Assembly: GCA_031262245.1 (NCBI GenBank)
Contig: JAISIJ010000270.1
Coordinates: forward strand, 1-37,107
Source: Oscillospiraceae bacterium
GTDB lineage: Bacteria > Bacillota > Clostridia > Oscillospirales > Ruminococcaceae
Direction: 5' to 3'
DNA length: 37,107 nt
Shown: positions 6,201 to 26,004 of the stretch, piece by piece
How the letters are laid out: the number at the start of each line of letters is the position of its first letter
Numbering within the stretch: position 1 is the stretch's first letter
Notes under the pieces: model-generated
What the model saw: the letters and a program-made list of their open reading frames with translations, nothing else
Told to the model about the DNA's origin: nothing
Databases searched by the model: none
Position numbers and translations under genes: made by a program

Positions 6201-7577
6201 ATGGCTAAAAACAGAACGGTATTTGTTTGCAGTAATTGCGGATATGAGAGTTCAAAATGGAACGGTAAATGCCCCGACTGTAATGAATGGAATACTCTTG
6301 AAGAACAGGCGTTCTCGGTTAAGGGAACACCTGCTGTTAATATGCTTAAACCTGTTGCAACTCGCCGCCTTAAAGATATTACTTCCGAAGAGGAAATAAG
6401 ATATTATACGGGTATCGGCGAATTGGACAGAGTTTTGGGTGGAGGACTGGTTAAAGGTTCGATTGTACTTTTGGGCGGTGAACCGGGTATAGGTAAGAGT
6501 ACAATTCTCTTGCAAATATGCCAATTTTTGGGCGAGAAATACAGCGTTTTATATGTTTCCGGTGAGGAAAGTGCACGTCAGCTTAAACTCCGTGCAGAAC
6601 GATTGGGTGTTACAACGGAAAATCTCTATATGCTTGCCTCAACCGATGCAGAGAGTGTTAATGATACTATTTCTGTTACAAAGCCCGATATTGTAATAAT
6701 TGACAGTATTCAAACTATGAATTTACGTACACTCAATACCTCTCCCGGGTCGATTACGCAAGTGCGTGAATGTACAAACCTTTTTATGTATACCGCAAAA
6801 TCTCTTGAAATACCTATATTTATTGTGGGTCACGTTAACAAAGACGGCAATATTGCAGGTCCTAAAGTTATGGAACATATTGTTGACGCTGTTCTTTATT
6901 TTGAGGGTGAAAGAAATCTATCTTACAGAATATTGAGAGCGGTTAAAAATCGTTTCGGTTCAACAAATGAAATAGGTGTTTTTGAAATGTTGGATAAGGG
7001 TTTAAGAGAAGTTTCAAACCCCTCTGAAATGCTTTTAAGCGGACGACCTCTTAATGTTTCCGGCACTTGCGTTACCTGTGTTATGGAGGGTTCACGCCCT
7101 ATTTTGGCAGAGGTTCAAGCTCTTGCAACCAAAAGCGGTTTTTCTGCACCACGACGTACGGCAACAGGTTTTGACTTTTCGAGAATGGCTATTATTATTG
7201 CGGTTTTGGAAAAGCGAACAGGTATATTTTTCGGTACATTAGATGTTTATCTCAACATAGTCGGCGGTTTTAAATTAGATGAAACAGCAGGTGACTTATC
7301 TGTTGCATTGTCTTTGCAGTCAAGTGTTTTTGATAAACCTCTTCCAGAAAAATTAGTTGCTTTCGGAGAAGTGGGATTAGGCGGAGAAGTACGTTCTGTT
7401 TCTCATATCGTTCAGCGAGTTAAAGAGGCGGAGCGAATGGGTTTTGAAAGTTGTATTATTCCGAAACACAACTTAGCACAACTGAACGGACTGAAATTAT
7501 CCATAAAAGTTATAGGTGTTACAAGCCTTAAGCAAGCGTTTTATTTATTGAATAATGAAAAAAATCTTGGTGAATAA
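6201..7577 (+). CDS. radA: DNA repair protein RadA
   Basis: C4 zinc finger CSNCGYESSKWNGKCPDC, Walker A GGEPGIGKST, KNRFGSTNEIGVFEM RadA motif, Lon-like C-terminus. Confidence 0.97.
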   Translation: MAKNRTVFVCSNCGYESSKWNGKCPDCNEWNTLEEQAFSVKGTPAVNMLKPVATRRLKDITSEEEIRYYTGIGELDRVLGGGLVKGSIVLLGGEPGIGKSTILLQICQFLGEKYSVLYVSGEESARQLKLRAERLGVTTENLYMLASTDAESVNDTISVTKPDIVIIDSIQTMNLRTLNTSPGSITQVRECTNLFMYTAKSLEIPIFIVGHVNKDGNIAGPKVMEHIVDAVLYFEGERNLSYRILRAVKNRFGSTNEIGVFEMLDKGLREVSNPSEMLLSGRPLNVSGTCVTCVMEGSRPILAEVQALATKSGFSAPRRTATGFDFSRMAIIIAVLEKRTGIFFGTLDVYLNIVGGFKLDETAGDLSVALSLQSSVFDKPLPEKLVAFGEVGLGGEVRSVSHIVQRVKEAERMGFESCIIPKHNLAQLNGLKLSIKVIGVTSLKQAFYLLNNEKNLGE

Positions 7578-8498
7578 ATGAAAAAATACACCCTGTTTAC
7601 TCCCGAGGGTATGAGAGATACCCTTTTTGAGGAATGTAAAATACGCAGACAAACAGAGAATACACTCTTTGATATTGCCGAAAAAAACGGTTACAGAGAA
7701 ATTTCTACACCAATCTTTGAGTTTTATGATGTTTTTGACCATAGAAAATTGAATTTCCCACAGGAAAATCTCTATAAATTTACAGACAATAAAGGGCGTT
7801 TAATGGTTTTACGTCCTGATGTTTCTTTGCCTATTGCAAGGAGTGCGGCTACTCGTTTGCGTAATGAAGAATTACCCTTACGATTGTTTTATGCACAAGA
7901 TGTATTCAGAGTGAATAATTCTGACACAGGGAAGAAAAGCAGTATGCGGCAAGTGGGTGCGGAATTAATAGGCAATGCAGACGACTTGGAGATTTTTTCA
8001 CTTGCAACGGATTTTCTGAAAAGTTTTAATAAACCTTTTACCCTTGAGATTGGGCATATCGGTATTTTTAAACACCTTACAAAAAAACTCAAAGAGAACG
8101 AAGAATTTGAAAAATTAGATACTGTTCGTAATTTGATTGCAAGGAAAAATTCACCTGAATTAAATAATATGGATATAGATACAGCTTTAAAGCAATTACC
8201 AAAAATGTTCGGCAAAGCTGAAGTTTTTGAAAAATGCAACGGACTTTACCCCGAAGATATTCTTGACTACTTAAAAGATTTATATGAAAAACTCTCAAAA
8301 GATAACGATGTTATTATCGACTTGGGACTTGTTAATAAAATCAATTATTATACGGGTGTTGTATTTAAAGGATATGTGGGCGGTGTTGAAGTATTATCCG
8401 GCGGACGTTATGATGACCTTATCGGAAAATTCGGATATAACGTGCCTGCTATGGGTTTTGCATTATATTTAGATGACATTACGGAGCAGATAATATGA
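7578..8498 (+). CDS. hisZ: ATP phosphoribosyltransferase regulatory subunit (HisRS-like)
   Basis: HisRS-like fold motifs (PIFEFYDVF, LRPDVSLPIAR, GGRYDDLIGKFG), about 306 aa, overlaps hisG by ATGA. Confidence 0.93.
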   Translation: MKKYTLFTPEGMRDTLFEECKIRRQTENTLFDIAEKNGYREISTPIFEFYDVFDHRKLNFPQENLYKFTDNKGRLMVLRPDVSLPIARSAATRLRNEELPLRLFYAQDVFRVNNSDTGKKSSMRQVGAELIGNADDLEIFSLATDFLKSFNKPFTLEIGHIGIFKHLTKKLKENEEFEKLDTVRNLIARKNSPELNNMDIDTALKQLPKMFGKAEVFEKCNGLYPEDILDYLKDLYEKLSKDNDVIIDLGLVNKINYYTGVVFKGYVGGVEVLSGGRYDDLIGKFGYNVPAMGFALYLDDITEQII

Positions 8499-9109
8499 GA
8501 TTGGCATTAACAAAAGGCAGGATTGAGAAACAAACCATTGCTCTTTTTGAAAAAATAGGGTTTGATTGTTCCGAATTAAAAGATAAAGGCAGAAAATTAA
8601 TTCTGCCTGTTGAAAATTTTGAAGTGCTTCTTGCCAAACCCGACGATGTTATCACCTATATTGAATATGGGGTTTGCGATTTGGGTATAGTGGGAAAAGA
8701 TACAATAGCACAAAAGGGCGGAAAATTTTATGAAGTCCTTGACTTGGGTTTCGGTAAATGCAGATTTGCACTTGCCAACAAAAAGGACGTTGATTTCTAT
8801 GCCGGCAGCGGAGTTAAAACTATTGCAACAAAATACCCTAACGTTGCACGAAATTATTTTCAAAGCAAGAATATGGACATTCGCATTATAAAAATTGAGG
8901 GTTCGGTTGAGGTTGCTCCCTTGTTGGGACTTGCAGATGGTATTGTTGATATAGTTGAAACAGGCAATACTCTTGTTGCAAACGGTCTTGAAGTTAAAGA
9001 ATGGATAATGGATATTTCCTCAAGACTTATTGTCAACACCGCAAGTATGAAGTTGAAAATGGAAGAAATAAACGAATTTATAAGAAAAATAGAAAATGTG
9101 AAAATATGA
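8495..9109 (+). CDS. hisG: ATP phosphoribosyltransferase catalytic subunit, short form
   Basis: MRLALTKGRIEKQTIALFEKIGFD, DLGIVGKDTI, DGIVDIVETGNTL; 204 aa. Confidence 0.97.
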   Translation: MRLALTKGRIEKQTIALFEKIGFDCSELKDKGRKLILPVENFEVLLAKPDDVITYIEYGVCDLGIVGKDTIAQKGGKFYEVLDLGFGKCRFALANKKDVDFYAGSGVKTIATKYPNVARNYFQSKNMDIRIIKIEGSVEVAPLLGLADGIVDIVETGNTLVANGLEVKEWIMDISSRLIVNTASMKLKMEEINEFIRKIENVKI

Positions 9110-9351
9110 GATTAGATAAGTATTTAAAAGTTTCAAGATTGATAAAAAGACGTACTGTTGCGAATGAAGCCTGTGATGCAGGTAAAATACTTGTAAACGA
9201 TAAGGTCGCAAGGGCTTCTTACGAAGTTAAAATCGGTGATATTATTGAGATAAAACTTGCAAGAAATGTTAAAGTCAAGGTGTTGAATATCTCCGAGATT
9301 GCCAATAAATCAAATGCCGCTGAGCTTTTCGAAATAATTGTTGTTGAATAA
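9106..9351 (+). CDS. rqcP: S4-domain RNA-binding protein (RqcP/YabO, Hsp15-like)
   Basis: MRLDKYLKVSRLIKRRTVANEACDAGKILVNDKVARASYEVKIGDII; ATG overlaps the hisG stop. Confidence 0.88.
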   Translation: MRLDKYLKVSRLIKRRTVANEACDAGKILVNDKVARASYEVKIGDIIEIKLARNVKVKVLNISEIANKSNAAELFEIIVVE

Positions 9352-10341
9352 AACAGCGGGGTCTTGAGGTTTTATAGCCGCACTCTTCAAATGATATGCC
9401 TTTGCACGTTGTTTATCGCCCAATCTGTCATAGCAAACACAGAGTTGCAGATAAGGCAGAAAATCATAACAATCTTTTACGTTAAAGCCCAAAGCAGAGG
9501 GTGTACATCTTAAAGCTGCCTCATACCACCATATTGCACGCTGATATTCTTTTGTACTTTGATAATAATTTCCTAAATCATAGCAAATTTCCGCTCTGGG
9601 AGAATCTGTTTCAAAAGATTTATATAAAAACTTAACGTTTTTTGTCATTTTATATAAATCCGAACAAGCGGTTATTTTATTTTCAATAAAAACATCATTG
9701 CGTTTTAAGATAGATTCCATTAACGCAACAGCTTCGTCTTTACGGTTATGCCACATTAACTCCCTTGCATAATAGTATTGTTCTCTTGCGTTAAGTTTAT
9801 CTCCGCGTTCAATCATTTTTTTGAATATGTTGAGGTTTCTGTCTTTTTCGCTGTCTTTTACCCTTGCGTGGGTTACGGTAATATCCGCATAAAGAATTTG
9901 TCCCGTAGGAGCTATACATTCGTGTATAGTTCCTTTCCAACGCTGTATACTCGGTATGTTTTTTATCAGACGTTCCCTGTTATATTCCGTTCCCGAAACG
10001 CTGTATTTCATATATACCATATCAATATCCGTTGATAAGGTGTTTTTTAATTCCGAAATAGCTTTCTGATTGTCTTCCGATATAATATCGTCAGCATCAA
10101 GCCACATTTGATAATCCATTTTTGCAAGTGAAAAAGCATAATTCCTTGCTTTTGCAAAATCATCCACCCATTTAAATTCATATACTTTATCGGTATATTC
10201 TTTTGCGATTTGTATAGTATTATCAATAGAGCCTGTATCAACTATAATAATCTCGTCTGCAAAACTTTTTGCACAATCCAAGCAACGTCCGAGTGTTTTT
10301 TCCTCATCTTTGACTATCATACAAAGAGATATTGTTACCAT
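9310..10341 (-). CDS. Family 2 glycosyltransferase with C-terminal TPR-like region
   Basis: MVTISLCMIVKDEEKTLGRCLDCAKSFADEIIIVDTGSIDNT..., MWLDADDII, then YDLGNYYQSTKEYQRAIWWYEAAL repeats; start trimmed to ATG 10341. Confidence 0.88.
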   Translation of the reverse strand: MVTISLCMIVKDEEKTLGRCLDCAKSFADEIIIVDTGSIDNTIQIAKEYTDKVYEFKWVDDFAKARNYAFSLAKMDYQMWLDADDIISEDNQKAISELKNTLSTDIDMVYMKYSVSGTEYNRERLIKNIPSIQRWKGTIHECIAPTGQILYADITVTHARVKDSEKDRNLNIFKKMIERGDKLNAREQYYYARELMWHNRKDEAVALMESILKRNDVFIENKITACSDLYKMTKNVKFLYKSFETDSPRAEICYDLGNYYQSTKEYQRAIWWYEAALRCTPSALGFNVKDCYDFLPYLQLCVCYDRLGDKQRAKAYHLKSAAIKPQDPAVLFNNNYFEKLSGI

Positions 10342-10579
10342 AATTTTCTCCTTTGTTCGTAAAAGCAAATTTTGCGTATACAATTTGTTTTTATATGTGA
10401 TAATTATATGAAAATTTACTTTTTTGTTGACATAATAAATATTATATGATAATATAACTGTATTATATGACATACTGGATATGTGTTTCAGACTTTTTAA
10501 ACATTTAAGATTCAGTATTTTTTTAGTCAAATATGTTTATTAAAAAAATGTGTTTGCATATGTATAGGAGGTATACATA

Positions 10580-13396
10580 ATGGATTATAATGAAAATAGA
10601 GGTTGGGGTACCGAAGACGGCGGTTTGACCGACAACAGTGTAACTTCTCTCAGCGGTTCTGAGGGTTTCGGCGGCGGTGTTACTGTTCTTTCTAAAAGGA
10701 GAATAAAAAAACTCCCCATAATAATTGCGGCGGCAGCTGTGGTTGTTGCGGCGGCTTGTGCGTTGTCTTATGCTTTTATTCCGTCTGTTAAAAATGCTGT
10801 AAGACTTGCAACAATGTCACCCGATAAATATTTTGCAACCGTTGAAAAAGAAAATTTCGAGGGTATTGCAAAAGATGCCGCAGACCAATACGGTGCGTTA
10901 ATCGACCAATTAAGCGGTTCACAAAATGTCAAAGCAAATTTCGCATTAGATGTTACCGAAGAGGGTGCGAAAGCTATGGATATGAGTGAGGATTTCCCTG
11001 ACGGTATGTCAATTGACGGCGAAATGCAGGTTGTTTTTGAAAAAGAACTTCTCTCCGTAATCCTTTCGGCTGCTTATAACGGTACTGATTTGGGAACTGT
11101 AAATACTTTAATGGATACCGAAGGTCTTTATATACAATATCCCGAACTCAACGAAACTTGGCTGGGTGTACCTATGGCTGAAATTACCGGCGGTATGAGC
11201 ACAGAAGACTTAGTTGAAACATTCTTTACTTCAATGGGTTTAGATGTTGACGGTACTGATGTAGTTGCGGCTATGGAAACATTTGAGATTACCGATTATC
11301 TCTCTCCTGCTGAATTGGAAACTTTCTTAAACAAATACAACGGTATTATCGTTGACGGATTTACAGACATTACTCTTGAAAAATCCAAAGAAGTTACAAT
11401 CGGCGGTGTTACCCAAAAGTTTACGGTTGTAAACTCTGAAATGTCCTCTGATGACATTAAAGAGGTTATAATAAATGTATTAGATGCTCTTAAAGAAGAA
11501 ACATTCCCTGTTGAGATTGTTGAACATTTCGGCATTGAAGAGTTCAACCAACGCAAATATTCAGGTGCTATGGATATTGCAATCGGTTATATTGAAGACG
11601 AATGGGACAATTTAGAATTAGATTTTGATATTGTTCTTGAAACTTATGTAAACTCCAAAGGCGAGATTTACGGTACTGATATAGGCGTTGAAGTAGGCGG
11701 CGGAATGTCAATTTCCGCTTATGCTCTCCAAGCACTCGATAATGATAAATTAGGTGTTGAGGGCGGTCTTAAAGTTAAAGGTATGACAGGTGAAGGGACT
11801 TATGTTCCTCTTTCTTACGAAGGTACTTTAGATTATTCAAAGGACGAAAAAGTTTCAGGTACTGTTGATATTACTATTGTTACCGACCTTGAAAACTCCG
11901 ATTCTGATATTACTATTCCCATTGACCTTAAAAATGTCGGTGTTGTTTCCGAACGCGGTGATGTTTATCCTGTAGGTAAAATTTCAACAGTTTTGTCTGA
12001 CGAAATTACAGACATAGGCGACGTTGAAATTTCAATGGATTATTCTTATGATAACGGTCCCGGCATAGAAGTTACTTTCGGTGTTGACGACGAAGAATAT
12101 CTCTCAATGAGTGTGTCTTCCGAATATGATGCGGCTGAAACTCTTACCGCTCCCGATGAGTATCTCGGAGAAAAAGACGAGGACGAATGGCTTGAGGGCA
12201 TCAACAAAGAAAAAGCAGACGAGATTTTCCTTGCTCTCTTTGGTATGACTTTTGACGAGTATATGGAACCCGACGATGACGATTGGTATACTGAATATGA
12301 GGACTATGATGATTATAGTGACTATTCAACAGATACCGAAGAACTTTCTTATGATGATGGTTACATTGACGGATATGACGACGGTTATTTAGACGGACAG
12401 TATTATGATATTTATGACAGTTATGCTGAAAGTATGCGTATTGGCAGTGAAGAGTATGAAAACGGTTATGATGACGGATACGAAGATGGTTATGACGATG
12501 GTTTAGCAGACCGAGAAACTCTTCCGGAAGTTTCTGACAATACACAGTTTACAGGTGGTGACGAAGTAACATCTTGGGGCGGTTATTCTATGGGTTTATA
12601 CTATGGTACTTCCGTAGGCGAATATGATGCACTTTACGGCGACCCTTATGGTGCGAATTATTCCGACAGTAACGGTCAAGATACAAGATATGACGAGGGA
12701 TATGAAATCGGATATTCCCAAGGTTACAGTCAATATGCTCCGGGCGGTATGCCGGAAACTCCGTCAGTAGGTGTTTCCGATACAGGTACAGGCGAGGTTA
12801 CACCGCTGACAACCAATAAAAAACCTACTAAACCCGCAATTACAAATCCTTTAAATGAATATAACAACGGCTCTGTTTCGACAGAGCCTGTTGCTACTAT
12901 TACAACAAGTTTTTCCACTACCACAACTGTTTCAATAACTGCAGACGGAGGGAATACTTCAGTTACCGCAAGAACGGTTACCACAACAACAACCGTTACA
13001 ACTACCGAAGAAGTAACTTTAAACGGTCATTATTACGCTAACACAGACGTGAGGGTTATAGTGCCGCAAGGGTATACTGCCTCCGAAGAAAGCGGTATGA
13101 TTGAAATTTCAAACCAAGATAACCTCCTTTCAATTCAATCCGAATTTCCTATGACATATTCTTCCGCAAGTGAGATTGCCGCACTTTATACCGCCGCTGA
13201 AATGACTGTTACTTCTCAAAATGAAAATTTTTCTATCGGCGGACAGAGCGGCTACAGAATTGATTTTATTTGTGACGGGATTAAGGGTGTTGTTATTTAT
13301 ATTACCACAGGGAATCTTGCTCCGTATTCCATTATTTACAATGGCAACGATACAGCTTTAATGGAAAAAGTTATAGAAAGTATTGAATTTAAGTAA
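10580..13396 (+). CDS. Large single-pass membrane-anchored extracellular protein with acidic DGY-repeat and Thr-rich linker
   Basis: Short cytoplasmic N-terminus, TM helix KLPIIIAAAAVVVAAACALSYAFI, long acidic ectodomain, YDDGYIDGYDDGYLDG...NGYDDGYEDGYDDG repeats, TTTTTVTTT linker; RBS AGGAGG. Confidence 0.85.
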   Translation: MDYNENRGWGTEDGGLTDNSVTSLSGSEGFGGGVTVLSKRRIKKLPIIIAAAAVVVAAACALSYAFIPSVKNAVRLATMSPDKYFATVEKENFEGIAKDAADQYGALIDQLSGSQNVKANFALDVTEEGAKAMDMSEDFPDGMSIDGEMQVVFEKELLSVILSAAYNGTDLGTVNTLMDTEGLYIQYPELNETWLGVPMAEITGGMSTEDLVETFFTSMGLDVDGTDVVAAMETFEITDYLSPAELETFLNKYNGIIVDGFTDITLEKSKEVTIGGVTQKFTVVNSEMSSDDIKEVIINVLDALKEETFPVEIVEHFGIEEFNQRKYSGAMDIAIGYIEDEWDNLELDFDIVLETYVNSKGEIYGTDIGVEVGGGMSISAYALQALDNDKLGVEGGLKVKGMTGEGTYVPLSYEGTLDYSKDEKVSGTVDITIVTDLENSDSDITIPIDLKNVGVVSERGDVYPVGKISTVLSDEITDIGDVEISMDYSYDNGPGIEVTFGVDDEEYLSMSVSSEYDAAETLTAPDEYLGEKDEDEWLEGINKEKADEIFLALFGMTFDEYMEPDDDDWYTEYEDYDDYSDYSTDTEELSYDDGYIDGYDDGYLDGQYYDIYDSYAESMRIGSEEYENGYDDGYEDGYDDGLADRETLPEVSDNTQFTGGDEVTSWGGYSMGLYYGTSVGEYDALYGDPYGANYSDSNGQDTRYDEGYEIGYSQGYSQYAPGGMPETPSVGVSDTGTGEVTPLTTNKKPTKPAITNPLNEYNNGSVSTEPVATITTSFSTTTTVSITADGGNTSVTARTVTTTTTVTTTEEVTLNGHYYANTDVRVIVPQGYTASEESGMIEISNQDNLLSIQSEFPMTYSSASEIAALYTAAEMTVTSQNENFSIGGQSGYRIDFICDGIKGVVIYITTGNLAPYSIIYNGNDTALMEKVIESIEFK

Positions 13397-14520
13397 TGTT
13401 TGAAAATGTTAAAACGCCTTGTTATATTATAGATTGCCATAAATTACGTCAAAATTGTGAAATATTGTTAGAAGTTAAAAAGCAAACGGGTTGTAAAATT
13501 CTGCTTGCTCAAAAAAGTTATTCCTGTTATGCAACTTATCCTATTATTTCTCAATATCTTGACGGAACTACTGCCAGCGGACTTTATGAGGCGAAGTTAG
13601 GGGCAGAATTTTTCGGCAAGGAAACCCATATTTTTGCTCCTGCTTATACAGACGAGGACTTCAGCGAGATTATAGAAATTTGTGACCATATATCTTTTAA
13701 CAGTTTAACGCAGTTGGAGAAACACCGTAAAAAAGTCCCCGAAAATGCAAAAATATCTCTCAGAGTAAATCCGCTGTATTCTGAAGTTGAAACAGAAATT
13801 TACAATCCTTGTGCTAAATTTTCTCGTTTCGGTGTTTTGCCGAAAGATATATCAAAAGTAAACCTTGAAAATATCCAAGGTTTGCATTTTCATACAATGT
13901 GCGAACAGAGAGCGGATACTCTTGCACGGACTTTACCGTATATCGAAAATTATTTTGGCGAGATATTGAAAAAAATGGAGTTTCTGAACATCGGCGGCGG
14001 TCAGCATATCACAAAAGAGGGTTTTGATATTTCTAAATTTTGTGATATTATCAACTATCTTCAAAACAAATATAATTTAACTGTATATATGGAACCGGGA
14101 GAGGCAATTGCACTAAATGCGGGTTATTTTGTTGCGAGTGTGCTTGATATAGTGGAGAATGAAAGAGATATTGCAATATTGGATTTTTCTGCCGCTTGTC
14201 ATAATCCCGATATTTTGGAAATGCCTTATCGTCCCGAATGTATGAATATAAATAATGAAAAATGCGGAAAAATCGGTGAAAAAAAATACTCCTATCGTTT
14301 TGGAGGAAATACTTGTCTTTCTGGTGATGTTATAGGCGATTACAGCTTTGATACACCCCTTAAAGTGGGAGATAAAATAATCTTTTTGGATATGGCAATA
14401 TATTCAATGGTGAAAAATAACACTTTCAACGGCATAAAATTACCCGATATTTTACTTTATGACAATAATATCACAATTCACAAGCAGTTCGGATATGAAG
14501 ATTTTAAGGTTCGACTATAA
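13396..14520 (+). CDS. nspC: Carboxynorspermidine/carboxyspermidine decarboxylase
   Basis: Fold III PLP decarboxylase pattern TPCYIIDCHKLRQNCEIL...KILLAQKSYS...YLDGTTASGLYEAKLG, FHTMCEQ, EPGEAIALNAGY; overlaps upstream stop by TAATG. Confidence 0.9.
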   Translation: MFENVKTPCYIIDCHKLRQNCEILLEVKKQTGCKILLAQKSYSCYATYPIISQYLDGTTASGLYEAKLGAEFFGKETHIFAPAYTDEDFSEIIEICDHISFNSLTQLEKHRKKVPENAKISLRVNPLYSEVETEIYNPCAKFSRFGVLPKDISKVNLENIQGLHFHTMCEQRADTLARTLPYIENYFGEILKKMEFLNIGGGQHITKEGFDISKFCDIINYLQNKYNLTVYMEPGEAIALNAGYFVASVLDIVENERDIAILDFSAACHNPDILEMPYRPECMNINNEKCGKIGEKKYSYRFGGNTCLSGDVIGDYSFDTPLKVGDKIIFLDMAIYSMVKNNTFNGIKLPDILLYDNNITIHKQFGYEDFKVRL

Positions 14521-14540
14521 AAACCTACATTTTTTCTTTT

Positions 14541-14662
14541 CTGATAGTAGCAGAGACGGCGGCTCTCGGAGTTCCCTTTTTCTTTTTTCTGATAGTAGCA
14601 GGGACGGCGGCTTTCGGAGTTCCCTATTTCTTTTCACAGTTGGCAATTCAGCTGACATTGGT
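14541..14662 (+). repeat. Dispersed intergenic repeat, copy C (contains two tandem 48-nt units)
   Basis: CTGATAGTAGCAGRGACGGCGGCTYTCGGAGTTCCC repeated at 14541 and 14589, then GTTGGCAATTCAGCTGACATTGG. Confidence 0.85.
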
Positions 14663-14675
14663 TTAAATGAATATG

Positions 14676-14706
14676 AAAAATCCCCTTTTCCAAAGGGGAT
14701 TTTTTT
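14676..14706. terminator. Intrinsic terminator between convergent nspC and dnaB
   Basis: AAAAATCCCCTTT-TCC-AAAGGGGATTTTTTT. Confidence 0.9.
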
Positions 14707-14735
14707 AGCATACTATGTCAGATATTTATTATTTT
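14701..14735 (+). repeat. Dispersed 35-36 nt repeat, copy T2
   Basis: TTTTTTAGCATACTATGTCAGATATTTATTATTTT; partner of 1-36. Confidence 0.8.
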
Positions 14736-14822
14736 GAACGATATTTTTTGGATTAATAAAAATTTTCAAATCAACTTCCACAATAATCAGTTATAATCGG
14801 ACAAATAACATACGAGTAGAGG

Positions 14823-14893
14823 TAATGTCAGCTAAGTTGCCAATAACCACAACCGATACGGAACTTCGAGAGCTGCCGCCCCTGCACCTATCA
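14823..14893 (-). repeat. Dispersed intergenic repeat, copy D (opposite orientation to C)
   Basis: Reverse complement reads CTGATAGGTGCAGGGGCGGCAGCTCTCGAAGTTCCGTATCGG...TTGGCAACTTAGCTGACATTA, clearly related to copy C. Confidence 0.85.
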
Positions 14894-14897
14894 GATA

Positions 14898-16244
14898 CTA
14901 AATAAAAGGAGGGGGGATTTGGGTAGGCATAGAAAAGCGTGTAAATTGTCCATCCCAATGGAGATAGACGACACCTGTTTCACCGTGACGATTTTTTGAA
15001 ACAATGCACTCGACTAAATTCGGGTCGGGTGAGTTGGCGTTATAGTAGCCGTCACGATAGAGAAATAATACCACATCAGCGTCTTGTTCGATTGAACCGC
15101 TGTCACGCAAGTCAGAGAGCATTGGACGTTTGTCTTGACGATTTTCAACCGCACGGGAGAGCTGTGAAAGGACGATAACAGGGACGTTTAAATCTTTTGC
15201 CATAAGTTTAAGTTGACGTGTCATATCGGAAAGAATAGTTACGGTATTGGCGTTTTTCATAGTTGATGAAAGCAAACCCAAATAGTCAATTACAACCAAC
15301 CCTAAATCTTTCATTCGACGTAATTTTGCTTTAATTTGAGGGACTGTTATAGCACCGCTGTCGTCAAGATAAATAGGGAAATCCCCTAAGTATTCCATTG
15401 TTTCCCTAAGTCTGTCCCAATCTTCGTCTTGTTTAATATTACCATTACGCATAGTCATACTGTCGATAAGAGCAGTTGATGAAAAAATTCTCGTTGCAAT
15501 TTGTTCTGTTGACATTTCAAGGGAAAATAAAACGATATTTTTACCCATTGTCTTTGCGGCATTTGTCATAATATTCAAAGCAAAAGAAGTTTTACCCATA
15601 CCCGGACGAGCAGCAAGTATAATCAAGTCGGATTTATTAAGCCCTGTTATAACTGTGTCAAGATTGGAATATCCTGTTGACGCACCTAAGTACATATCGC
15701 GGTCATCGCCGCTACGTTGAGAAATTTCTTCATAAGCACGGAATAAAGCCTCTTTAAGATGAACAAGTCCGCCGATATCTTTTCCCTGTCGTAAGTCATA
15801 AAGCCGTTGTTCGGCAAGGTCGAGAATTTCTTCTGCAGAATCAGTTGCCGCCATAGCCGTTTCGGAAATTTCCTGTGAGATAAGCACTAATTGCCGTAAC
15901 TGGAAATATTCAGAAACAATTTTGCAATAACTCTCGATATTTGCAACACTTGGGACACCTTCAACTATTGCGGCGAGATAACGGCGAGCTTCAGTATCTG
16001 TTTCAAAAACACCTAATTTAACAGCCTCATTCATAACGGTGATAATGTCAATTTTGGAGTTAAATGTAAATTGTTCGAACATTATCATAAAGAGATTTTT
16101 ATGTGCATCTAAATAAAAACTATCAGGTTTAATTTTTTCCAAAACAACAACAAAGACATCGGGACTTTTCAATATAGCCCCGAGTATAGTTTTTTCAGCC
16201 TCTTCGCTGTATGGTAATTGCTGTTGTGTAAAATCAAAAGGCAT
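14898..16244 (-). CDS. dnaB: Replicative DNA helicase
   Basis: QLPYSEEAEKTILGAIL, Walker A AARPGMGKTSFALN, SLEMS, DLRDSGSIEQDADVVLFLYR; no intein. Confidence 0.98.
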   Translation of the reverse strand: MPFDFTQQQLPYSEEAEKTILGAILKSPDVFVVVLEKIKPDSFYLDAHKNLFMIMFEQFTFNSKIDIITVMNEAVKLGVFETDTEARRYLAAIVEGVPSVANIESYCKIVSEYFQLRQLVLISQEISETAMAATDSAEEILDLAEQRLYDLRQGKDIGGLVHLKEALFRAYEEISQRSGDDRDMYLGASTGYSNLDTVITGLNKSDLIILAARPGMGKTSFALNIMTNAAKTMGKNIVLFSLEMSTEQIATRIFSSTALIDSMTMRNGNIKQDEDWDRLRETMEYLGDFPIYLDDSGAITVPQIKAKLRRMKDLGLVVIDYLGLLSSTMKNANTVTILSDMTRQLKLMAKDLNVPVIVLSQLSRAVENRQDKRPMLSDLRDSGSIEQDADVVLFLYRDGYYNANSPDPNLVECIVSKNRHGETGVVYLHWDGQFTRFSMPTQIPPPFI

Positions 16245-16760: not shown

Positions 16761-18035
16761 CTATGCACCTAAACCGATACCGTGATAATCAATACCGTAT
16801 TCTTTCATTTCGAGAAGTGGGAAACAGTTACGACCGTCAAAAACAAGTTTGTTTTTCATAATGTCAAAATCAGAGGGTTTAAGTGTTTTAATTTCATTCC
16901 AATCTGTAAATATAAAGCAAACATCTGCATTTTTAAGGGTTTCTGTGGGGCTTTCGCAAACTACAACAGTTGGAAATTTTTCTTTTGTTTTTTCCGAACC
17001 TACAGGGTCATAAACTTTAACGTTAGCACCTTCGTCTGTTAAAAGTCGGATATTAACAAGGCTGGGAGCTTCTCTCAAGTCGTCTGTGTTGGGTTTGAAA
17101 GTCAAGCCTAAAACGGCTACATTTAATCCCAAGAAAGAGGGGAAATATCCACGAGCTTTTTTTGTTAAAGTGAGTTTTTGATTTTCATTTACATCAATTG
17201 CCGCCTTAACTGTTTTAAGTTCACAGTCATTAAACCCTGCAAGCCAATGAAGAGCCTTTGTATCTTTAGGGAAACAAGAACCGCCGTAACCGCAACCGGG
17301 ATTTAAAAATTTACTGCCTATTCTGTCGTCATAGCTGATACCTTCCATAACTTTTAATACATTAGCACCGACTTTTTCGCAAAGATTGGCAATTTCATTG
17401 ACATAAGAAATTTTTAACGCTAAAAAGTCATTGGCTGTATATTTAATCATTTCGGCAGAACATCTGTTTGTAAAAACTTTCGGACAATCCCAAGGTGCAT
17501 AAATATCTTCCATAATCTTTTTTGCCGCTTCGGTTTCTGTTCCGATAACAATTCTTGAAGGGCGGAGCATATCGTCAACAGCAGTACCCTGTGCTAAAAA
17601 TTCGGGGTTTGAAATTAAATCAAAGTCAACACCCAAAGATTTGCTGTATTCAACGATTTTATCATTTGTTCCGATAGGCACTGTGCTTTTCATAACAATG
17701 AACGCAGATTTTTTGAATTTTGCAATATTATTAACGGAATCATAAACATATTTTAAATTTGCAGAACCGTCTTCACGCTCGGGTGTTCCGACTGCAATAA
17801 ATATTACTTCCGCATCTTTAAAAGCGGTTTCATTATCAAGGGTATAAGTTAAACGTTCCTTATTATTTGTGAGCAATTCCGGCAATCCCGGTTCATAAAT
17901 GGTGCATTTCCCGGAATTAAGCATATCAATTTTTTCTTTAACAACATCAAGACAAACAACATCGTGTCCATATTCGGCGAAAGTTGCCGCAGCCACTATT
18001 CCGACATAGCCTGTCCCGATTATAGAAATTTTCAT
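16761..18035 (-). CDS. ugd: UDP-glucose 6-dehydrogenase family
   Basis: MKISIIGTGYVGIVAAATFAEYGHDVVCLDV, NPGCGYGGSCFPKDTKAL catalytic Cys motif. Confidence 0.94.
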   Translation of the reverse strand: MKISIIGTGYVGIVAAATFAEYGHDVVCLDVVKEKIDMLNSGKCTIYEPGLPELLTNNKERLTYTLDNETAFKDAEVIFIAVGTPEREDGSANLKYVYDSVNNIAKFKKSAFIVMKSTVPIGTNDKIVEYSKSLGVDFDLISNPEFLAQGTAVDDMLRPSRIVIGTETEAAKKIMEDIYAPWDCPKVFTNRCSAEMIKYTANDFLALKISYVNEIANLCEKVGANVLKVMEGISYDDRIGSKFLNPGCGYGGSCFPKDTKALHWLAGFNDCELKTVKAAIDVNENQKLTLTKKARGYFPSFLGLNVAVLGLTFKPNTDDLREAPSLVNIRLLTDEGANVKVYDPVGSEKTKEKFPTVVVCESPTETLKNADVCFIFTDWNEIKTLKPSDFDIMKNKLVFDGRNCFPLLEMKEYGIDYHGIGLGA

Positions 18036-21000
18036 TTTTTTGCTCCTTTTATATTTTGTTCAAGTTTTAAAAGTCTTTTTTCCAATTCTTTTAATTGATT
18101 TTTTAGTTCTTGATTTTCAAGTTCTAAAATTTCAATGTCATTTTTTTCGGCTTTTAGGCTTTTTGCGTTTTTCGGTAATGCAATTGTTTCAAAAACCAAT
18201 TGCTCTGTAATAAGCGAAATAAATTTATAAGGTAAATCGTCAGGGGAGATTTGGTTGCGTGAGGTTAAAAAGCCCTCTTTAAATGCCCAACCGCTGCCTT
18301 GTTTTTGATATTGTCCGTAAACGGTAATTGCATCTTTGTCAATTGTATAATAAACGCTGTCACTCAATTCATTCTGTTCTTGCCATTTATGTGAATAGAG
18401 TGAAACACCCGTACTCTCAACACCTATTTCCAAATACAATGTATTATAAACATTGGGGCGGCGATTATTTAATATAATAAAATTAATCATTGCCGAACAA
18501 TTATTAAAAATCTCTTCTTTTAAAGATATTTTAAATAAAGGTATTACGGAATCTGCCGATGCGGCATTTTTGAAAACAGTTTTATATAACTCAGTATCTG
18601 TAGAAATAATATTATTTTGAACAACACCTAAAGTATTTGTAATTCTGACAACATCTTTCGGAATAGGTTTAAGTTGATTTCTTAAATCGCCTTGAGTGAT
18701 TTGTTTCAGCTTAACGGAATGTCCGACACCGATACGAGAGGTTAATAACATTGTTTTAAATTCAAAACCCGAGGCATATCCCGTATAATTAGCATAGAAT
18801 AAAATGATATTATTTTCTATTTTATAAGAAATTTTTGTTCTGAATATATCTTCGCCTTTTTCCCATTCAGCTTGAACAACTTTCATATTCAAGTCTTTGT
18901 CCAAGAACGCATAAAAGCGGAGAATATCGCTGTAGAAAGGGGTATTATTCGCCAAATATATAAATTTAATCTCTGTAATTACATTTTTATACGGTTCATT
19001 TGTCAGTTCTAATTTAAAAAACGGAACACCGGCATCGTGTTTGGCATCTTTTTGGATAAATATAAATTTAGAAGTGGTTTTTTCTCCGGGTTCGATAACA
19101 AAGCTTTTCCCTTTATCTTCAATCGGATTATCTGTAAGACTTTGTTTAAATTCTGCAAACTGACCGGGTTCATATTCAGATAACCGTAAAAAGAATCTGT
19201 ATTTATAAACCAAAGCGGAAGGTATAATACTTTCATTCAGTTGAGTTATGCCGATATAATCAAGAAAACCGCTTGAAAATTTATCAAACGCCATAGCCGC
19301 TACTTCGTCAAAATCAATACTTTCAACAAAATACCAATAAAACATTTTTATTGTGGCAACTGAAAAATTTGTTGCAAGTGAGGGTTTTGTATTTTTAATA
19401 TTATCAAAAATACCGCTGATTGATTCAAATATCGCCAACGGATAAATATTATGATTTTTTCTGCTGATATTTGCTTCCGAAGAAAGATTTGAACGTAGAA
19501 TCCAACGCAAAAGTACCTTAGGCAATACTGAAATCTTGTTTGCAGAGGTTAAAGCGGAGTAAGTGAAATAAGCATCATTTGAAACAAATAATTCCTTGAA
19601 ATGCAAGAGATTTTTTTGAACAAATTTACGGTTAAAAGCTTTATCCCAAGCACATCCGTTAAGTGCAAGATAAGGGTTAGAAGTCATTTCATTTAACGTA
19701 AAAGTCGGTTTGTTAGGAAAATTAACACCGTTATTTGCAAAAAACCAAGTCAATTCTCTGCAAAGATTTCTTGCCGTTTCAAATTGTTCGGATTTAAATA
19801 TTAAGACATCGGGAGTGTTTTTTGCCGTAGCCTCACTTATCTCCTGCAACATATTCGGATAGAAATAATCATCGCTGTCAAGGAAAGAAAGATATGCACC
19901 CTGTGCATATTCCATACCCAAATTTCTTGCCGCTCCCGCACCTTTATTTTCTTGTTTTAACAGTTTAAAACGGCTGTCTTTGTCAGCATATTCTTGCATA
20001 ATTTCGGGTGAAGAATCAGTTGAACCGTCATCAATAAGAATAAATTCTGTCTCTTTGAGGGTTTGTGCACAAAGACTGTCAAGTGTTTCTTTCAGATATT
20101 TTTCGGAATTATAAACAGCCATAATCACAGAGATTTTACAAACCTGTGCTAAATAACTTTCATAATATTCAACAGGAGAAAACGCTAAATTAATTAAAGC
20201 GTTATAAGTGTTTTTATTGTTGAAAACTGTTTTATCAATAGAGATTGTCATATTTTTTGTAAATTCTTTGATTTGTTTTGAACATTCCAAAATCAGCAGT
20301 AAATGACAATCTTTATTGGATAATCTGATTGTAAAATTCAGATTATATATATATCTTTCAAAAAATAATTCTTTTTTTGCCGGGAAGTCGGGATTTTTTT
20401 GCAACAATTCAAATGCAGATTTATGAGCCGCATTGAATTGACTTACCATATTATCTTCATTTTTTGTAATAGAATTATTATTATCTTTTCTGTGGTAAAC
20501 ACCTGTAAAATTCAAGTGCATTATGCTTTTTGCAGCTAAAACACATTCAAAATGGAAAGAGCAATCTTCCCAGTTTATTAAATTTTCATCGTGTAAGATA
20601 TTAGTTTCCGATAAGAATTTTCTGCGGTGTAACGTACGCCAACGGTGATTAAAAGCAGTATATGCCTCTTTATCTTTACCGCTGATAATCTTATTGTAAG
20701 TAGATGGTTTTTGGGTACAGGGTTTAAGGGTTTGCGTTAAATTATGCTTTTCAATGCTCCCTGAAAATTCACAATAATCAACGGATACCAAATCTAAATC
20801 AAATTCTTTTGCAGTATTATACGTTCTTTCCAAAAAGTTTATATTATAATAATCGTCACTATCCAAAAATGCGATATATTCACCTTTTGCCTGTTTAATA
20901 CCGTAATTAAGCTGATAACAAAGACCCTTATCCTCAAAATCAAAGAGAATAATTCTTTTGTCTTTTTTTGCATATTTATTTATAATATTAACCGTATTAT

Positions 21001-21142
21001 CTGTTGAACGACTGTTTATAACAAGAATTTCAATATCCTTAAAGGTTTGATTTATAACGCTGTTTAAACATTCCTCCAAATATAATTCGGAATTAAAACA
21101 AGGGATTATAACAGAAACAGCGGGGGTAACTGCTTTCGGCAT
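18032..21142 (-). CDS. Tandem double family-2 glycosyltransferase with C-terminal coiled coil
   Basis: Two GT2 domains: SVIIPCFNSELYLEECLNSVINQTFKDIEILVINSRSTDNT...FLDSDDYY and SVIMAVYNSEKYLKETLDSLCAQTLKETEFILIDDGSTDSS...FLDSDDYF; ends ILELENQELKNQLKELEKRLLKLEQN. Confidence 0.93.
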   Translation of the reverse strand: MPKAVTPAVSVIIPCFNSELYLEECLNSVINQTFKDIEILVINSRSTDNTVNIINKYAKKDKRIILFDFEDKGLCYQLNYGIKQAKGEYIAFLDSDDYYNINFLERTYNTAKEFDLDLVSVDYCEFSGSIEKHNLTQTLKPCTQKPSTYNKIISGKDKEAYTAFNHRWRTLHRRKFLSETNILHDENLINWEDCSFHFECVLAAKSIMHLNFTGVYHRKDNNNSITKNEDNMVSQFNAAHKSAFELLQKNPDFPAKKELFFERYIYNLNFTIRLSNKDCHLLLILECSKQIKEFTKNMTISIDKTVFNNKNTYNALINLAFSPVEYYESYLAQVCKISVIMAVYNSEKYLKETLDSLCAQTLKETEFILIDDGSTDSSPEIMQEYADKDSRFKLLKQENKGAGAARNLGMEYAQGAYLSFLDSDDYFYPNMLQEISEATAKNTPDVLIFKSEQFETARNLCRELTWFFANNGVNFPNKPTFTLNEMTSNPYLALNGCAWDKAFNRKFVQKNLLHFKELFVSNDAYFTYSALTSANKISVLPKVLLRWILRSNLSSEANISRKNHNIYPLAIFESISGIFDNIKNTKPSLATNFSVATIKMFYWYFVESIDFDEVAAMAFDKFSSGFLDYIGITQLNESIIPSALVYKYRFFLRLSEYEPGQFAEFKQSLTDNPIEDKGKSFVIEPGEKTTSKFIFIQKDAKHDAGVPFFKLELTNEPYKNVITEIKFIYLANNTPFYSDILRFYAFLDKDLNMKVVQAEWEKGEDIFRTKISYKIENNIILFYANYTGYASGFEFKTMLLTSRIGVGHSVKLKQITQGDLRNQLKPIPKDVVRITNTLGVVQNNIISTDTELYKTVFKNAASADSVIPLFKISLKEEIFNNCSAMINFIILNNRRPNVYNTLYLEIGVESTGVSLYSHKWQEQNELSDSVYYTIDKDAITVYGQYQKQGSGWAFKEGFLTSRNQISPDDLPYKFISLITEQLVFETIALPKNAKSLKAEKNDIEILELENQELKNQLKELEKRLLKLEQNIKGAKK

Positions 21143-21150
21143 TTTTCCTC

Positions 21151-22887
21151 CTACAATTCAAATATGGCATCATAAGTTCTTTTACAATTATTATTGTCAA
21201 TATTCCCGAAAAAATCATTAATCCTGTCAAGATATTTTTTCTTTTGTTTCGGGAAGATATTATTTTTTGAATTTTCGGTAAATTCAGCAATTGCTTTTAT
21301 CAATTCTTCTTTTTCCGTAATTATTTCTCCGAAACCATCTTTTTCATAATTAAAATAAGTAGGTTTATGATGATTGGGGAGTTTTTGATAATAAATAACA
21401 GGACGTTCAGAATAGGCAAAATCGAAAAAGACACTCGAAAAATCTGTAATTAACATAGCCGATTTTTTGAAAAGTTCAGCATAAGAAAGATTATCACCTA
21501 TTGTAATACATTCGGAAATATCCGCAAAAAATCTTCCGAATTGTTTTGCAAGAGGGTGAAGTTTCAATATTATCTTGAAATTATTCTTTTCTAAAGTTTT
21601 CAGCAAAATCGGGTCGGTGAGGAAATCTATAAGCATTTTGTAATAATCAGAAGCTTTAAATTCCGTTTCCGTCATTCCCGAAATACTATATCTCCAAGTA
21701 GGAGCAAAAGTTATAATTTTTTCAGGCGGTTCGTTATATACTCTGTTATCAAACCTCGGAAAACCCGTAAGTTTTACAACACCTTCGGGATAGCCGAAAG
21801 CAGAAGAATTTGTAATATAATCAAACTCTTTTTTTGCTGTTGCAACAAACATTTCCGGGTTATAGCGACGTTCATTATAGAAATCCGTCACATCGTCTTT
21901 TGTAATACCGTGCTGCAAAAATATAAATTTTGACCTGTCATAAACATAAAGAAATTGAATAGCCGGTGTTCCCGATGAAAACAAAATTGTTTTGGTAAGA
22001 CTTGATGCCCATTTTTCTGCAAAAGCAATTAACATAAACGTATCAAAATTTTCCGTGCAAACAATATTTTCGTCTTCGGGATTTTCCTTTTTTAACTTAT
22101 CATAACCTGTTTTGTTAATAATAAAATATTTTTCTATGCCGTCGTTTTGTTTTTTTGCATAATTATACAATGCCCAACCGTTATCGTCGGCAGTATTTTT
22201 TCTGTCTGAAAAAAGCCAGATTTTTCGTCCCTCATATTCCTTATAATGCTCAAGATAATATAAAAAAAGTTTTGTATCTTCAATAGTATTCATATTAACA
22301 GCATTACACATTGTATAGTGCTTAATAACTTCAAAATTGCTTTTTTCAACAAAGAGAATATTATTTTTAGGTGTAACGGTAAATACAGTATTTTCACAGG
22401 TATGAAAAGGAATTTTAAATCTTTTAATTGCTGAAAAAGGTGAGAAATTAGTATGGGTAAGCTTGGGACTGACGATACGTCCGCTTGCTGTTTTCAGGGA
22501 AATTCGGATAGTATCGTCAATCTCGAATTTAAAAACAAATTCAAATATTTTCAGAACAGCCGTATTTTTTTCTGCATATTTAGGGCGATAGAAATCATTT
22601 TCGGATATATGAATATTTGCATTAAAAATTTGGTTGTTATATACAAGAACAGGTGCAAAATCTTCACAAATCGAATGATAAAACCCGCGGATTGTAATAA
22701 TATTATTATATTCTTTTACACAAAAAAGCTTTAATTCCGTTGAGGAAAGGGGCATAAGCAGATTGTCGGCAATATAGACAGCGGTGTCTTTAACAACTGC
22801 TTTTTCCCCTGTAAGTTCCTCTAAAAGATATGCTCTTGTATAAAAATCCGAATGTTTTTCGTTAATTTCTTTTATACGGTCTGTCAT
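21151..22887 (-). CDS. CDP-glycerol glycerophosphotransferase family (TagB/TagF-like)
   Basis: YDRSKFIFLQHGITKDDV, ITFAPTWR, LKLHPLAKQF, SYAELFKKSAMLITDFSSVFFDFAYSERPVIYYQ. Confidence 0.92.
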   Translation of the reverse strand: MTDRIKEINEKHSDFYTRAYLLEELTGEKAVVKDTAVYIADNLLMPLSSTELKLFCVKEYNNIITIRGFYHSICEDFAPVLVYNNQIFNANIHISENDFYRPKYAEKNTAVLKIFEFVFKFEIDDTIRISLKTASGRIVSPKLTHTNFSPFSAIKRFKIPFHTCENTVFTVTPKNNILFVEKSNFEVIKHYTMCNAVNMNTIEDTKLFLYYLEHYKEYEGRKIWLFSDRKNTADDNGWALYNYAKKQNDGIEKYFIINKTGYDKLKKENPEDENIVCTENFDTFMLIAFAEKWASSLTKTILFSSGTPAIQFLYVYDRSKFIFLQHGITKDDVTDFYNERRYNPEMFVATAKKEFDYITNSSAFGYPEGVVKLTGFPRFDNRVYNEPPEKIITFAPTWRYSISGMTETEFKASDYYKMLIDFLTDPILLKTLEKNNFKIILKLHPLAKQFGRFFADISECITIGDNLSYAELFKKSAMLITDFSSVFFDFAYSERPVIYYQKLPNHHKPTYFNYEKDGFGEIITEKEELIKAIAEFTENSKNNIFPKQKKKYLDRINDFFGNIDNNNCKRTYDAIFEL

Positions 22888-24218
22888 ACTGCCTCAATAA
22901 TAAAATCTGCAGGTGTTCCTTTGTTTGAAATAACAACTTGTTGACCTTGAATTGTAAGGAAATACCCGCTGAAATTCTTTGAATAAAAATTGAAATCTTC
23001 GCCGTTTGCTTGAATACTGAATCTTCCTCTTGCTTTGCCTACATCTGACATATCAAACCCGTTTAATGATGTTTTTACAAGGATATAGGTAGAGTCTTTG
23101 AAAGTAGTTAAAAACAAATTGCCGGTTTTAAGGCGATAAGATAAAAGGAATTTATATTCGTCTTTTGTGCCTTTATTGTCGCCGATAAAGAATTTTGAAT
23201 CCTTGAGATAAATATATTTTCCGTTTGAAACAAGTCTTAATTTAACAACTTTATCACCGAAAAATTTATTATAATCGGGGGATTCCTCAACTTTATTGCG
23301 AACAACGCCTTTCATTGCCAATATCTCATTTTTCAATACAAGATTTTCGTCCTCAAGTACAAAGTTTTGTTTTTTGAGTTCTTCATATAATGATTTTAAA
23401 TCATTGTATTCGTCTAAAAGAGTGAGATATTTGGGGCTTTCTTCTTTTTCTTCTTCTTCTTCCTCGTCTTCACCTATTGCAACAATTTCTTCAACATCTA
23501 AATCGTCAACAATTTTAGTTTCTTCAATTGCTACTTCTGCTACTTCTTCAACTGCGATTTCTTTAACTGTCGGTTCAACAACAGGTTCCTCAATAACAGG
23601 CTCTTCAACAACAGTTTCTGTTATTGTTTCGGGAGCAATTTCAGCAACTGCATTTTTCTTTGTATATTTTCTTTTCGGTTTTTCTTCTTTTACAACCTCG
23701 GGAGCAGTTTCAGCCGCCGCATTTTTCTTAGTATATTTTCTTTTGGGCTTTTCTTCTTTTACAACCTCGGGAGCAATTTCAGCCGCCGCATTTTTCTTTG
23801 TATATTTTCTTTTGGGTGTTTCTTCTTTTACAACCTCGGGAGTAATTGCATTTTTCTTTGTATATTTTCTTTTTGGTTTTTCTTCTTTTACAACCTCGGG
23901 AGTAATTTCAACAGCCGCATTTTTCTTTGTATATTTTCTTTTCGGTGTTTCTTCTTTTATAACTTCGGGAGCAATTTCAGCCGCCGCATTTTTCTTAGTA
24001 TATTTTCTTTTGGGTGTTTCTTCTTTTACTACTTCGGGAGCAACTGCATTTTTCTTTGTATATTTTCTTTTGGGTGTTTCTTCTTTTATAACTTCAGCCG
24101 CTGTTTCAACTTTATTTTCAGCCACCTCTTGGGGAATAACTGCATTTTTCTTTGTATATTTTCTTTTTGCTTTTACCTCTGCGACAGGATTAATTTCAGG
24201 TGATTTTTTCCTTGCCAT
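22884..24218 (-). CDS. Octa-repeat basic protein (KRKYTKKNA repeats) with acidic linker, coiled coil and C-terminal beta-rich (possibly beta-trefoil/fascin-like) domain
   Basis: Eight KRKYTKKNA cores separated by APEVVKEE(T/K)P linkers; EDEEEEEEKEE; C-terminal VSNGKYIYLKDSKFFIGDNKG...; no signal peptide evident. Confidence 0.85.
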   Translation of the reverse strand: MARKKSPEINPVAEVKAKRKYTKKNAVIPQEVAENKVETAAEVIKEETPKRKYTKKNAVAPEVVKEETPKRKYTKKNAAAEIAPEVIKEETPKRKYTKKNAAVEITPEVVKEEKPKRKYTKKNAITPEVVKEETPKRKYTKKNAAAEIAPEVVKEEKPKRKYTKKNAAAETAPEVVKEEKPKRKYTKKNAVAEIAPETITETVVEEPVIEEPVVEPTVKEIAVEEVAEVAIEETKIVDDLDVEEIVAIGEDEEEEEEKEESPKYLTLLDEYNDLKSLYEELKKQNFVLEDENLVLKNEILAMKGVVRNKVEESPDYNKFFGDKVVKLRLVSNGKYIYLKDSKFFIGDNKGTKDEYKFLLSYRLKTGNLFLTTFKDSTYILVKTSLNGFDMSDVGKARGRFSIQANGEDFNFYSKNFSGYFLTIQGQQVVISNKGTPADFIIEAV

Positions 24219-25549
24219 TAATTCTTCCTCCTAACTTTTAATGTGTTAGATTTATTTGTTTTTTTGATATTTCCATTTGATTCTTCAAATTTCAAAACTA
24301 CGGGAACAAGTCGTTTTGCCGGTGTTTCATAGAAAAAACGAATACAGTCCTCCACGATAAAATCTATTTTAAAATAAAACTCATTCTCATAATAAATAGC
24401 CTTGCCCATATAAAAAATATTATTCCTTTTTATCGTTGAAAAAAAACAATTTTCATTATATTTTGCAATTAATTTAATATTCTCACAAACAGCGGAAAAT
24501 ATACCTTTAAAGCCGTTTTCACAGGATTGTATCATTACATCACTGCCGAAAGTTTCAAGTGTAAATTCGCCGAAAGTGCAAAAAGGTTTTATTTTATTTT
24601 CAAATAATTTTATTTCACCGTATTTTAATTTAAGCCATCCGATTTTTTGTGAAAAAGATAAATTTCTTTGAGAAAATATTATCTCATCATCAATATATTG
24701 CAGACAATAAAGGAACGCATCCCAAGCTGTTGTATATTCGGGTGTGTTTTTTAATTCTTCGGAATAGTCACCTTTATACCACTGCAAATCATAACAGACA
24801 ACCCTCTCTATATAATACGGTATTTTTCTGAATTTTGCAAGAAAAAAATCAAATAAATATTTATAAACTTTAAAAACACGCTTAAAAGTTTCAATATTTT
24901 TTCTCTGATTATTAATTGCAGAGGATTTTTCCGCTCTACGGCGGTAAAAATAAGTTGCTTCATTTATATATCCGAAAAAATATTTTTCGGCGGCAATTTC
25001 AAAAAATAATTTAAAATCTTCTGCAAGAGCAACATTTTTATCAAATTTATAATTTTTTAATACTTTTGTTTTAAAAAATACAACTCTCAAAGGAACGATA
25101 TTTTTATCGTTAAGTGAAATAATTCTTGTTTTTTGATTTATACACAAAGGGTGTTGTCCTTTTTTTGAATCAAAAAAAACAGTATTAACTTGTGTAAAAT
25201 CTATTTTGTCTTTATTTAATTCTAAAAATTCAAAACATATTTTCAGTAAATCCGGAGAAAATTTATCGTCACCGTCAAGAAAAGCAGTATATTCAGAGTA
25301 GGCAACCTCAATACCGACATTTCTTGTGTCAGAAACGCCGCTGTGTTCTTTATTTATATAACAGATATTAGAGTGTTTTTGTTGAAATTTTTCACAGATT
25401 AAAGCTGAGTTATCAGTGCTTCCGTCATTAATCAAAATCAGTTGAATATTTTCAAAACCGACAGTTTGGTTTATAACACTTTCAATAGCTGTTTCAATAT
25501 ATTTCTCGACGTTATAAACAGGTATTATAACGCTGAATATATACTTCAT
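24218..25549 (-). CDS. Family 2 glycosyltransferase
   Basis: FSVIIPVYNVEKYIETAIESVINQTVGFENIQLILINDGSTDNS...FLDGDDKFSPD. Confidence 0.93.
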   Translation of the reverse strand: MKYIFSVIIPVYNVEKYIETAIESVINQTVGFENIQLILINDGSTDNSALICEKFQQKHSNICYINKEHSGVSDTRNVGIEVAYSEYTAFLDGDDKFSPDLLKICFEFLELNKDKIDFTQVNTVFFDSKKGQHPLCINQKTRIISLNDKNIVPLRVVFFKTKVLKNYKFDKNVALAEDFKLFFEIAAEKYFFGYINEATYFYRRRAEKSSAINNQRKNIETFKRVFKVYKYLFDFFLAKFRKIPYYIERVVCYDLQWYKGDYSEELKNTPEYTTAWDAFLYCLQYIDDEIIFSQRNLSFSQKIGWLKLKYGEIKLFENKIKPFCTFGEFTLETFGSDVMIQSCENGFKGIFSAVCENIKLIAKYNENCFFSTIKRNNIFYMGKAIYYENEFYFKIDFIVEDCIRFFYETPAKRLVPVVLKFEESNGNIKKTNKSNTLKVRRKN

Positions 25550-26004
25550 ACAGGATAAATCAATTGCTCGGGTGAATAATTTTTCAGAATTTCAGATAAT
25601 TCCGATACATCTTTCTTTGCTTTTTCTAAATCGTGAAAAGCAAAATTACCACATTCCTCAAATTTTGAACCGGGGAGTTCGCCTTGAAAATCTTTTATAA
25701 ATTCAAGTGCATCTTTTACGAGTTTAATTGCCGCCTCTTTTTCCTTTGAACGTAAAAGCACATAAAATCCTGTCAAACAGCCCATAGGTCCTACATATAT
25801 AACATCGGCTTTAATATCGGAGTTTCTTGCAAAAGTTGCAAATAAATGCTCGATTGTATGTGCAGATGTTCCGCTTAAATAATCTCCGCCGTTGGGTTTC
25901 TTCATTCTGACATCATAGGTTATAATATCATCATCAATCCTTGATATATACATTCCTACACCGAATTTGGTATGGTCTGTTGAAAAGCTTGTAATACGTT
26001 CCAT
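25546..26004 (-). CDS. luxS: S-ribosylhomocysteine lyase
   Basis: HTIEHLFATFARN (HxxxH metal site), PMGCLTGFY, EECGNFAFHDL; 152 aa. Confidence 0.94.
   Translation of the reverse strand: MERITSFSTDHTKFGVGMYISRIDDDIITYDVRMKKPNGGDYLSGTSAHTIEHLFATFARNSDIKADVIYVGPMGCLTGFYVLLRSKEKEAAIKLVKDALEFIKDFQGELPGSKFEECGNFAFHDLEKAKKDVSELSEILKNYSPEQLIYPV

Follow-up and report, generated by a model that had tools for sequence, protein, structure and literature searches.

What does a protein built from a highly repetitive charged segment and a folded C-terminal end do among genes for surface-glycopolymer synthesis? This question is raised by a gene on the minus strand of the window, the whole 37,107-nucleotide stretch of DNA that we analysed. 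The gene (22884..24218, minus strand) was delimited by its open reading frame and translation, with the ATG at 24218 and the stop codon ending at 22884, and encodes a protein of 444 aa. From the N-terminus, this protein consists of a series of KRKYTKKNA cores, then an acidic region and a helix, and it ends in a domain rich in beta structure. In agreement with the original prediction, which knew of no named family of this kind, no match above the curated cut-offs was obtained with Pfam or NCBIfam, and no enzyme domain was found in these searches. No hydrophobic segment was seen either (19-residue hydropathy maximum of 0.84), as anticipated from the predicted lack of a signal peptide, and the protein is probably cytosolic. 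An antisense open reading frame (23296-24234, plus strand) was judged to mirror the repeat of the 444-aa gene and was discarded.

The gene belongs to a collinear run encoding a luxS-like protein, a GT2 glycosyltransferase, the 444-aa protein, a PF04464 transferase, a double-GT2 protein and a nucleotide-sugar dehydrogenase, with successive gaps of -4, -1, -4, 8 and -4 nt; rplI and dnaB follow. The names luxS, rplI and dnaB are those that we presume from reading the window. The GT2 gene (24218..25549, minus strand; Pfam PF00535) overlaps the 444-aa gene by 1 nt, and the gene of the PF04464 glycerophosphotransferase type (21151..22887, minus strand; Pfam and ortholog locus) overlaps it by 4 nt, exactly the position between GT2 and CDP-glycerol-transferase-type genes that had been proposed. 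Further downstream, the double-GT2 protein (18032..21142, minus strand; Pfam) ends in a coiled coil with a strong heptad pattern, which none of 300 shuffled sequences equalled on a home-made score. The run is closed by the gene for a UDP-glucose/GDP-mannose-type dehydrogenase (16761..18035, minus strand; Pfam, 4-nt overlap). Since the luxS-like gene (25546-26004, minus strand) shares 4 nt with the GT2 gene, it heads this glycan gene run. The GT2, PF04464 and dehydrogenase genes recognised by Pfam alongside the 444-aa gene bear out its surface-glycopolymer context. The G+C content is 28-34% from the GT2 to the double-GT2 gene, as compared with 35-39% in the luxS-like, dehydrogenase, rplI and dnaB genes. 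A 48-bp tandem repeat (2.2 copies, window 14530-14634) lies between genes and is apparently noncoding.

The charged repeat (aa 18-190; 23649..24167, minus strand) was characterized with Tandem Repeats Finder, which gave the array a score of 641-768, and by repeat and charge analysis. All eight predicted copies of KRKYTKKNA were recovered as identical peptides, at positions within 2 nt of those first given, although the true number could differ, since the copies were counted in a draft assembly (508 contigs). The cores start at aa 18, 50, 70, 93, 116, 136, 159 and 182 (low ends at 24141, 24045, 23985, 23916, 23847, 23787, 23718 and 23649, respectively), which defines units of 32, 20, 23, 23, 20, 23 and 23 aa; the acidic linkers between them and the expected 20- or 23-aa spacing were thus confirmed, with one additional unit of 32. 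The protein contains 33 distinct recurring 9-mers, and 1000 shuffled sequences contained none. The DNA of the copies is nearly identical. Codons of the cores vary silently only (ACA/ACT, GCA/GCG), and amino-acid changes are present in the linkers.

We then considered the occurrence of the motif elsewhere. A pattern search detected KRKYTKKN in 18 viral contigs, once per contig, and once in one genome of the family. The search for other repeat proteins of this type therefore returned single strings and no repeat family, and we found nothing in the literature on the motif, nor on combinations of trefoils, teichoic acid or lysine repeats. The basic character of the cores (repeat pI of about 9.8) and the lone KRKYTKKN strings close to the termini of some proteins from viral contigs would fit a tail that binds nucleic acid. 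However, the linkers are strongly acidic, the GRP core of the AT-hook is absent from KRKYTKKNA, no DNA-binding family was matched in Pfam or NCBIfam, and both the operon and the ortholog described below indicate glycan synthesis. We consider such a binding tail very improbable.

Among 299 genomes of the family, the helix and C-terminal domain (a predicted beta-trefoil, see below) were found in two, the genome of origin and that of a member of the same genus, G056. The G056 locus, on contig BNZF01000035 (16,842 bases), was the sole record found in an alignment scan of contigs; a contig scan with a single sequence yielded no relatives. No credible relative was obtained in overlapping draws of 394 genomes at the order level and 341 at the class level, and viral, phage and plasmid searches revealed no relative of the helix-trefoil protein. 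Among the weak order-level matches, two were inspected and set aside: L008, a frame of 69 aa that is interrupted by a stop and lies next to ABC-transporter genes, and L009, whose frame reads as a GntR/aminotransferase-type regulator. A further weak match, L010, is a 48-aa frame (E value of 0.005). The best reading of these searches, in which the genome of origin and G056 are 85% and 54% complete, is that the helix-trefoil protein is restricted to one genus.

The G056 ortholog has 228 aa and is about 33-36% identical to the 444-aa protein over the helix and trefoil. It lacks KRKYTKKNA and carries a short basic tail instead. Conservation in the family therefore does not extend to the repeat, which is ruled out as the family's essential working part. 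It looks like a recent lineage-specific embellishment, mainly of interest as a possible strain-variable tail. Upstream of the ortholog, direct repeats of about 160-170 bp were noticed by eye (L006:7830-8350), and this interval contains no open reading frame of at least 120 aa. The absence of the repeat from the ortholog, together with the near-identity of the copies in DNA, as expected after recent duplication, raises an alternative that is plausible but less likely than not: the helix and trefoil would serve the PF04464 enzyme, and the repeat would be a nearly neutral, functionless low-complexity expansion of a disordered tail. Against this stands the identity of the eight cores at the protein level, with silent changes only and linkers that vary, in numbers too small for a selection test.

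The segments that follow the repeat were analyzed in turn. The predicted Glu-rich acidic stretch (aa 200-262; 23433..23621, minus strand) was verified, with a net charge of -24. The next segment, a helix and probable coiled coil (aa 263-304; 23307..23432, minus strand), is predicted by AlphaFold to span about 40-50 residues and is fairly confident (pLDDT of about 80, two-sequence alignment). The helical part of the coiled-coil proposal was thus upheld, while its heptad pattern is modest, 26 of 300 shuffles scoring as well with the home-made score; that of the 228-aa ortholog is stronger (1 of 300). For the C-terminal domain (aa 305-444; 22887..23306, minus strand), the original prediction had advanced a fascin-like or ricin-like trefoil. 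A beta-trefoil comprises 12 strands, arranged as three units of four. The AlphaFold model contains 12 strands, at low confidence (mean pLDDT of 54.9, two-sequence alignment), and the ortholog's domain modelled alone has 10 strands, also at low confidence (pLDDT of 44). In Foldseek, 4 among the best 50 matches listed had an E value below 0.001. From their names, we take many of these 50 to be beta-trefoils or carriers of trefoil domains, such as lectins, CBM42, fascin, IL-1/IL-18, FGF and the designed Symfoil. Pfam matches remained below the cut-offs, with IL1 (PF00340) for the 444-aa protein (E value of 0.0017; 18.5 bits, cut-off 25) and FRG1 (PF06229) for the ortholog (E values of 0.01-0.05; 13.7-15.9 bits, cut-off 27). 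Given low-confidence models, Pfam matches below cut-off and trefoils among the Foldseek matches, a beta-trefoil is most likely the fold, although unproven, on weak but concordant evidence. The ricin-like variant was not supported, as no QxW motif was seen by eye in aa 305-444. Apart from predicted fold and sub-threshold profiles, which it shares with IL1, FRG1, fascin and trefoil lectins, the protein differs from these in being bacterial, in having no export signal and in joining the domain to a coiled coil.

A trefoil encoded in a glycan operon might read the growing glycan or its acceptor as a lectin does, directing or pacing the transferase, and carbohydrate-binding trefoils are numerous among the best 50 Foldseek matches listed. 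However, the model is of low confidence and the QxW motif was not seen. Moreover, trefoils bind proteins and lipids too. We regard glycan reading by the modelled domain as unlikely.

In G056, the ortholog gene lies directly upstream of a PF04464 gene, with a 1-nt overlap, so that a PF04464 gene is directly downstream and overlapping in both species that carry the helix-trefoil gene; no GT2 gene stands beside the ortholog. The linkage seen is to the PF04464 transferase, and not to the GT2 gene. The two PF04464 partners are 45% identical over 570 aa. As the single relative identified lacks the repeat tail, the helix and trefoil paired with the PF04464 transferase represent the conserved unit. 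The partner is related to TagF/TarF-type CDP-glycerol glycerophosphotransferases through PF04464, but scores just 50 bits with the NCBIfam TarF profile, for which the cut-off is 550, and the 444-aa protein is not an enzyme of that family. No glycerol-3-phosphate cytidylyltransferase (TIGR01518) above cut-off was found in the genome of origin or in G056, both incomplete; sub-threshold matches in the former were rejected, the best falling within a gene judged HldE/RfaE-like on reading. In the same genome, L052 (G000:C341) bears genes read as HldE/GmhA/GmhB-like heptose synthesis genes, possibly on a contaminating contig (genome contamination 5.3).

Single proteins fusing GT2 and PF04464 are encoded in G056 (contig C2), G370, G407 and G337, their halves resembling the GT2 and the PF04464 transferase of the window, respectively. 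Because they are fused elsewhere, the two window proteins probably act together, and this suggests that they form a complex. BLASTP detected no trefoil relative at these fusion loci. In G056 (L015:2-2632 and 6962-16001), a long protein that contains numerous QNFVQSEKPVETVQ-type repeats and reads as FliK-like is encoded next to flagellar hook-like genes and to genes for GT2-PF04464 fusions.

Since the PF04464 pairing is kept in two diverged species and the flanking enzymes are fused elsewhere, an accessory or scaffold role is the best reading of the 444-aa protein, which favours the scaffold element of the original prediction. We tentatively propose, at somewhat less than even confidence, that the protein is a cytosolic scaffold or adaptor subunit serving a transferase for surface glycopolymer. 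Its conserved working unit, the helix and trefoil, would bind the PF04464 transferase, the product of the next gene downstream. The helix may associate with itself or with the coiled coil ending the double-GT2 protein, a possible partner in view of its heptad pattern, and the protein would help to keep the separately encoded GT2 and transferase modules assembled at the membrane. The charged repeat would be a disordered, polyampholyte and lineage-specific extension of a basic N-terminal tail. It may give the tether more length or adhere to anionic lipids or polymers, or else be close to neutral. The scaffold reading accounts for the PF04464 gene kept in the second species; the absence of a GT2 gene beside the ortholog counts against it. 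Also against it are the small number of loci (two, from a single genus), the shortness and modest statistics of the coil in the 444-aa protein, and the lack of a TIGR01518 match above cut-off in the two incomplete assemblies.

The O-polysaccharide systems of Klebsiella and E. coli provide a working analogy: their polymerase modules, variously split or fused, are brought together on coiled-coil scaffold proteins (PMC11231755). WbdD and the Klebsiella O4/O7 coiled-coil proteins, scaffolds and molecular rulers (PMC3482155, PMC11231755), are likewise encoded among glycosyltransferase genes, and split-or-fused modules are common to these systems and to GT2/PF04464 here. In contrast to them, the present protein has a PF04464 partner, a predicted trefoil domain and a charged repeat. 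WbdD-like rulers bind the polymerase, hold it in a scaffold at the membrane and have a terminating enzyme at the far end of the coil. Because the present protein has no terminating enzyme domain (Pfam, NCBIfam) and its coil is much shorter than the extended spacer of WbdD-like rulers, we compare it with these proteins and do not place it among them.

A bolder version, which we consider highly unlikely, is that of a new cytosolic scaffold type for split GT2/PF04464 synthases, in which an expandable charged tail would determine how far the complex reaches or how it attaches, and the repeat number would tune the surface polymer from strain to strain. If the scaffold reading is right, a non-enzymatic adaptor would be added to PF04464-type surface-polymer synthesis, and it would suggest what keeps together, when split, the modules that some Clostridia encode as fusions.
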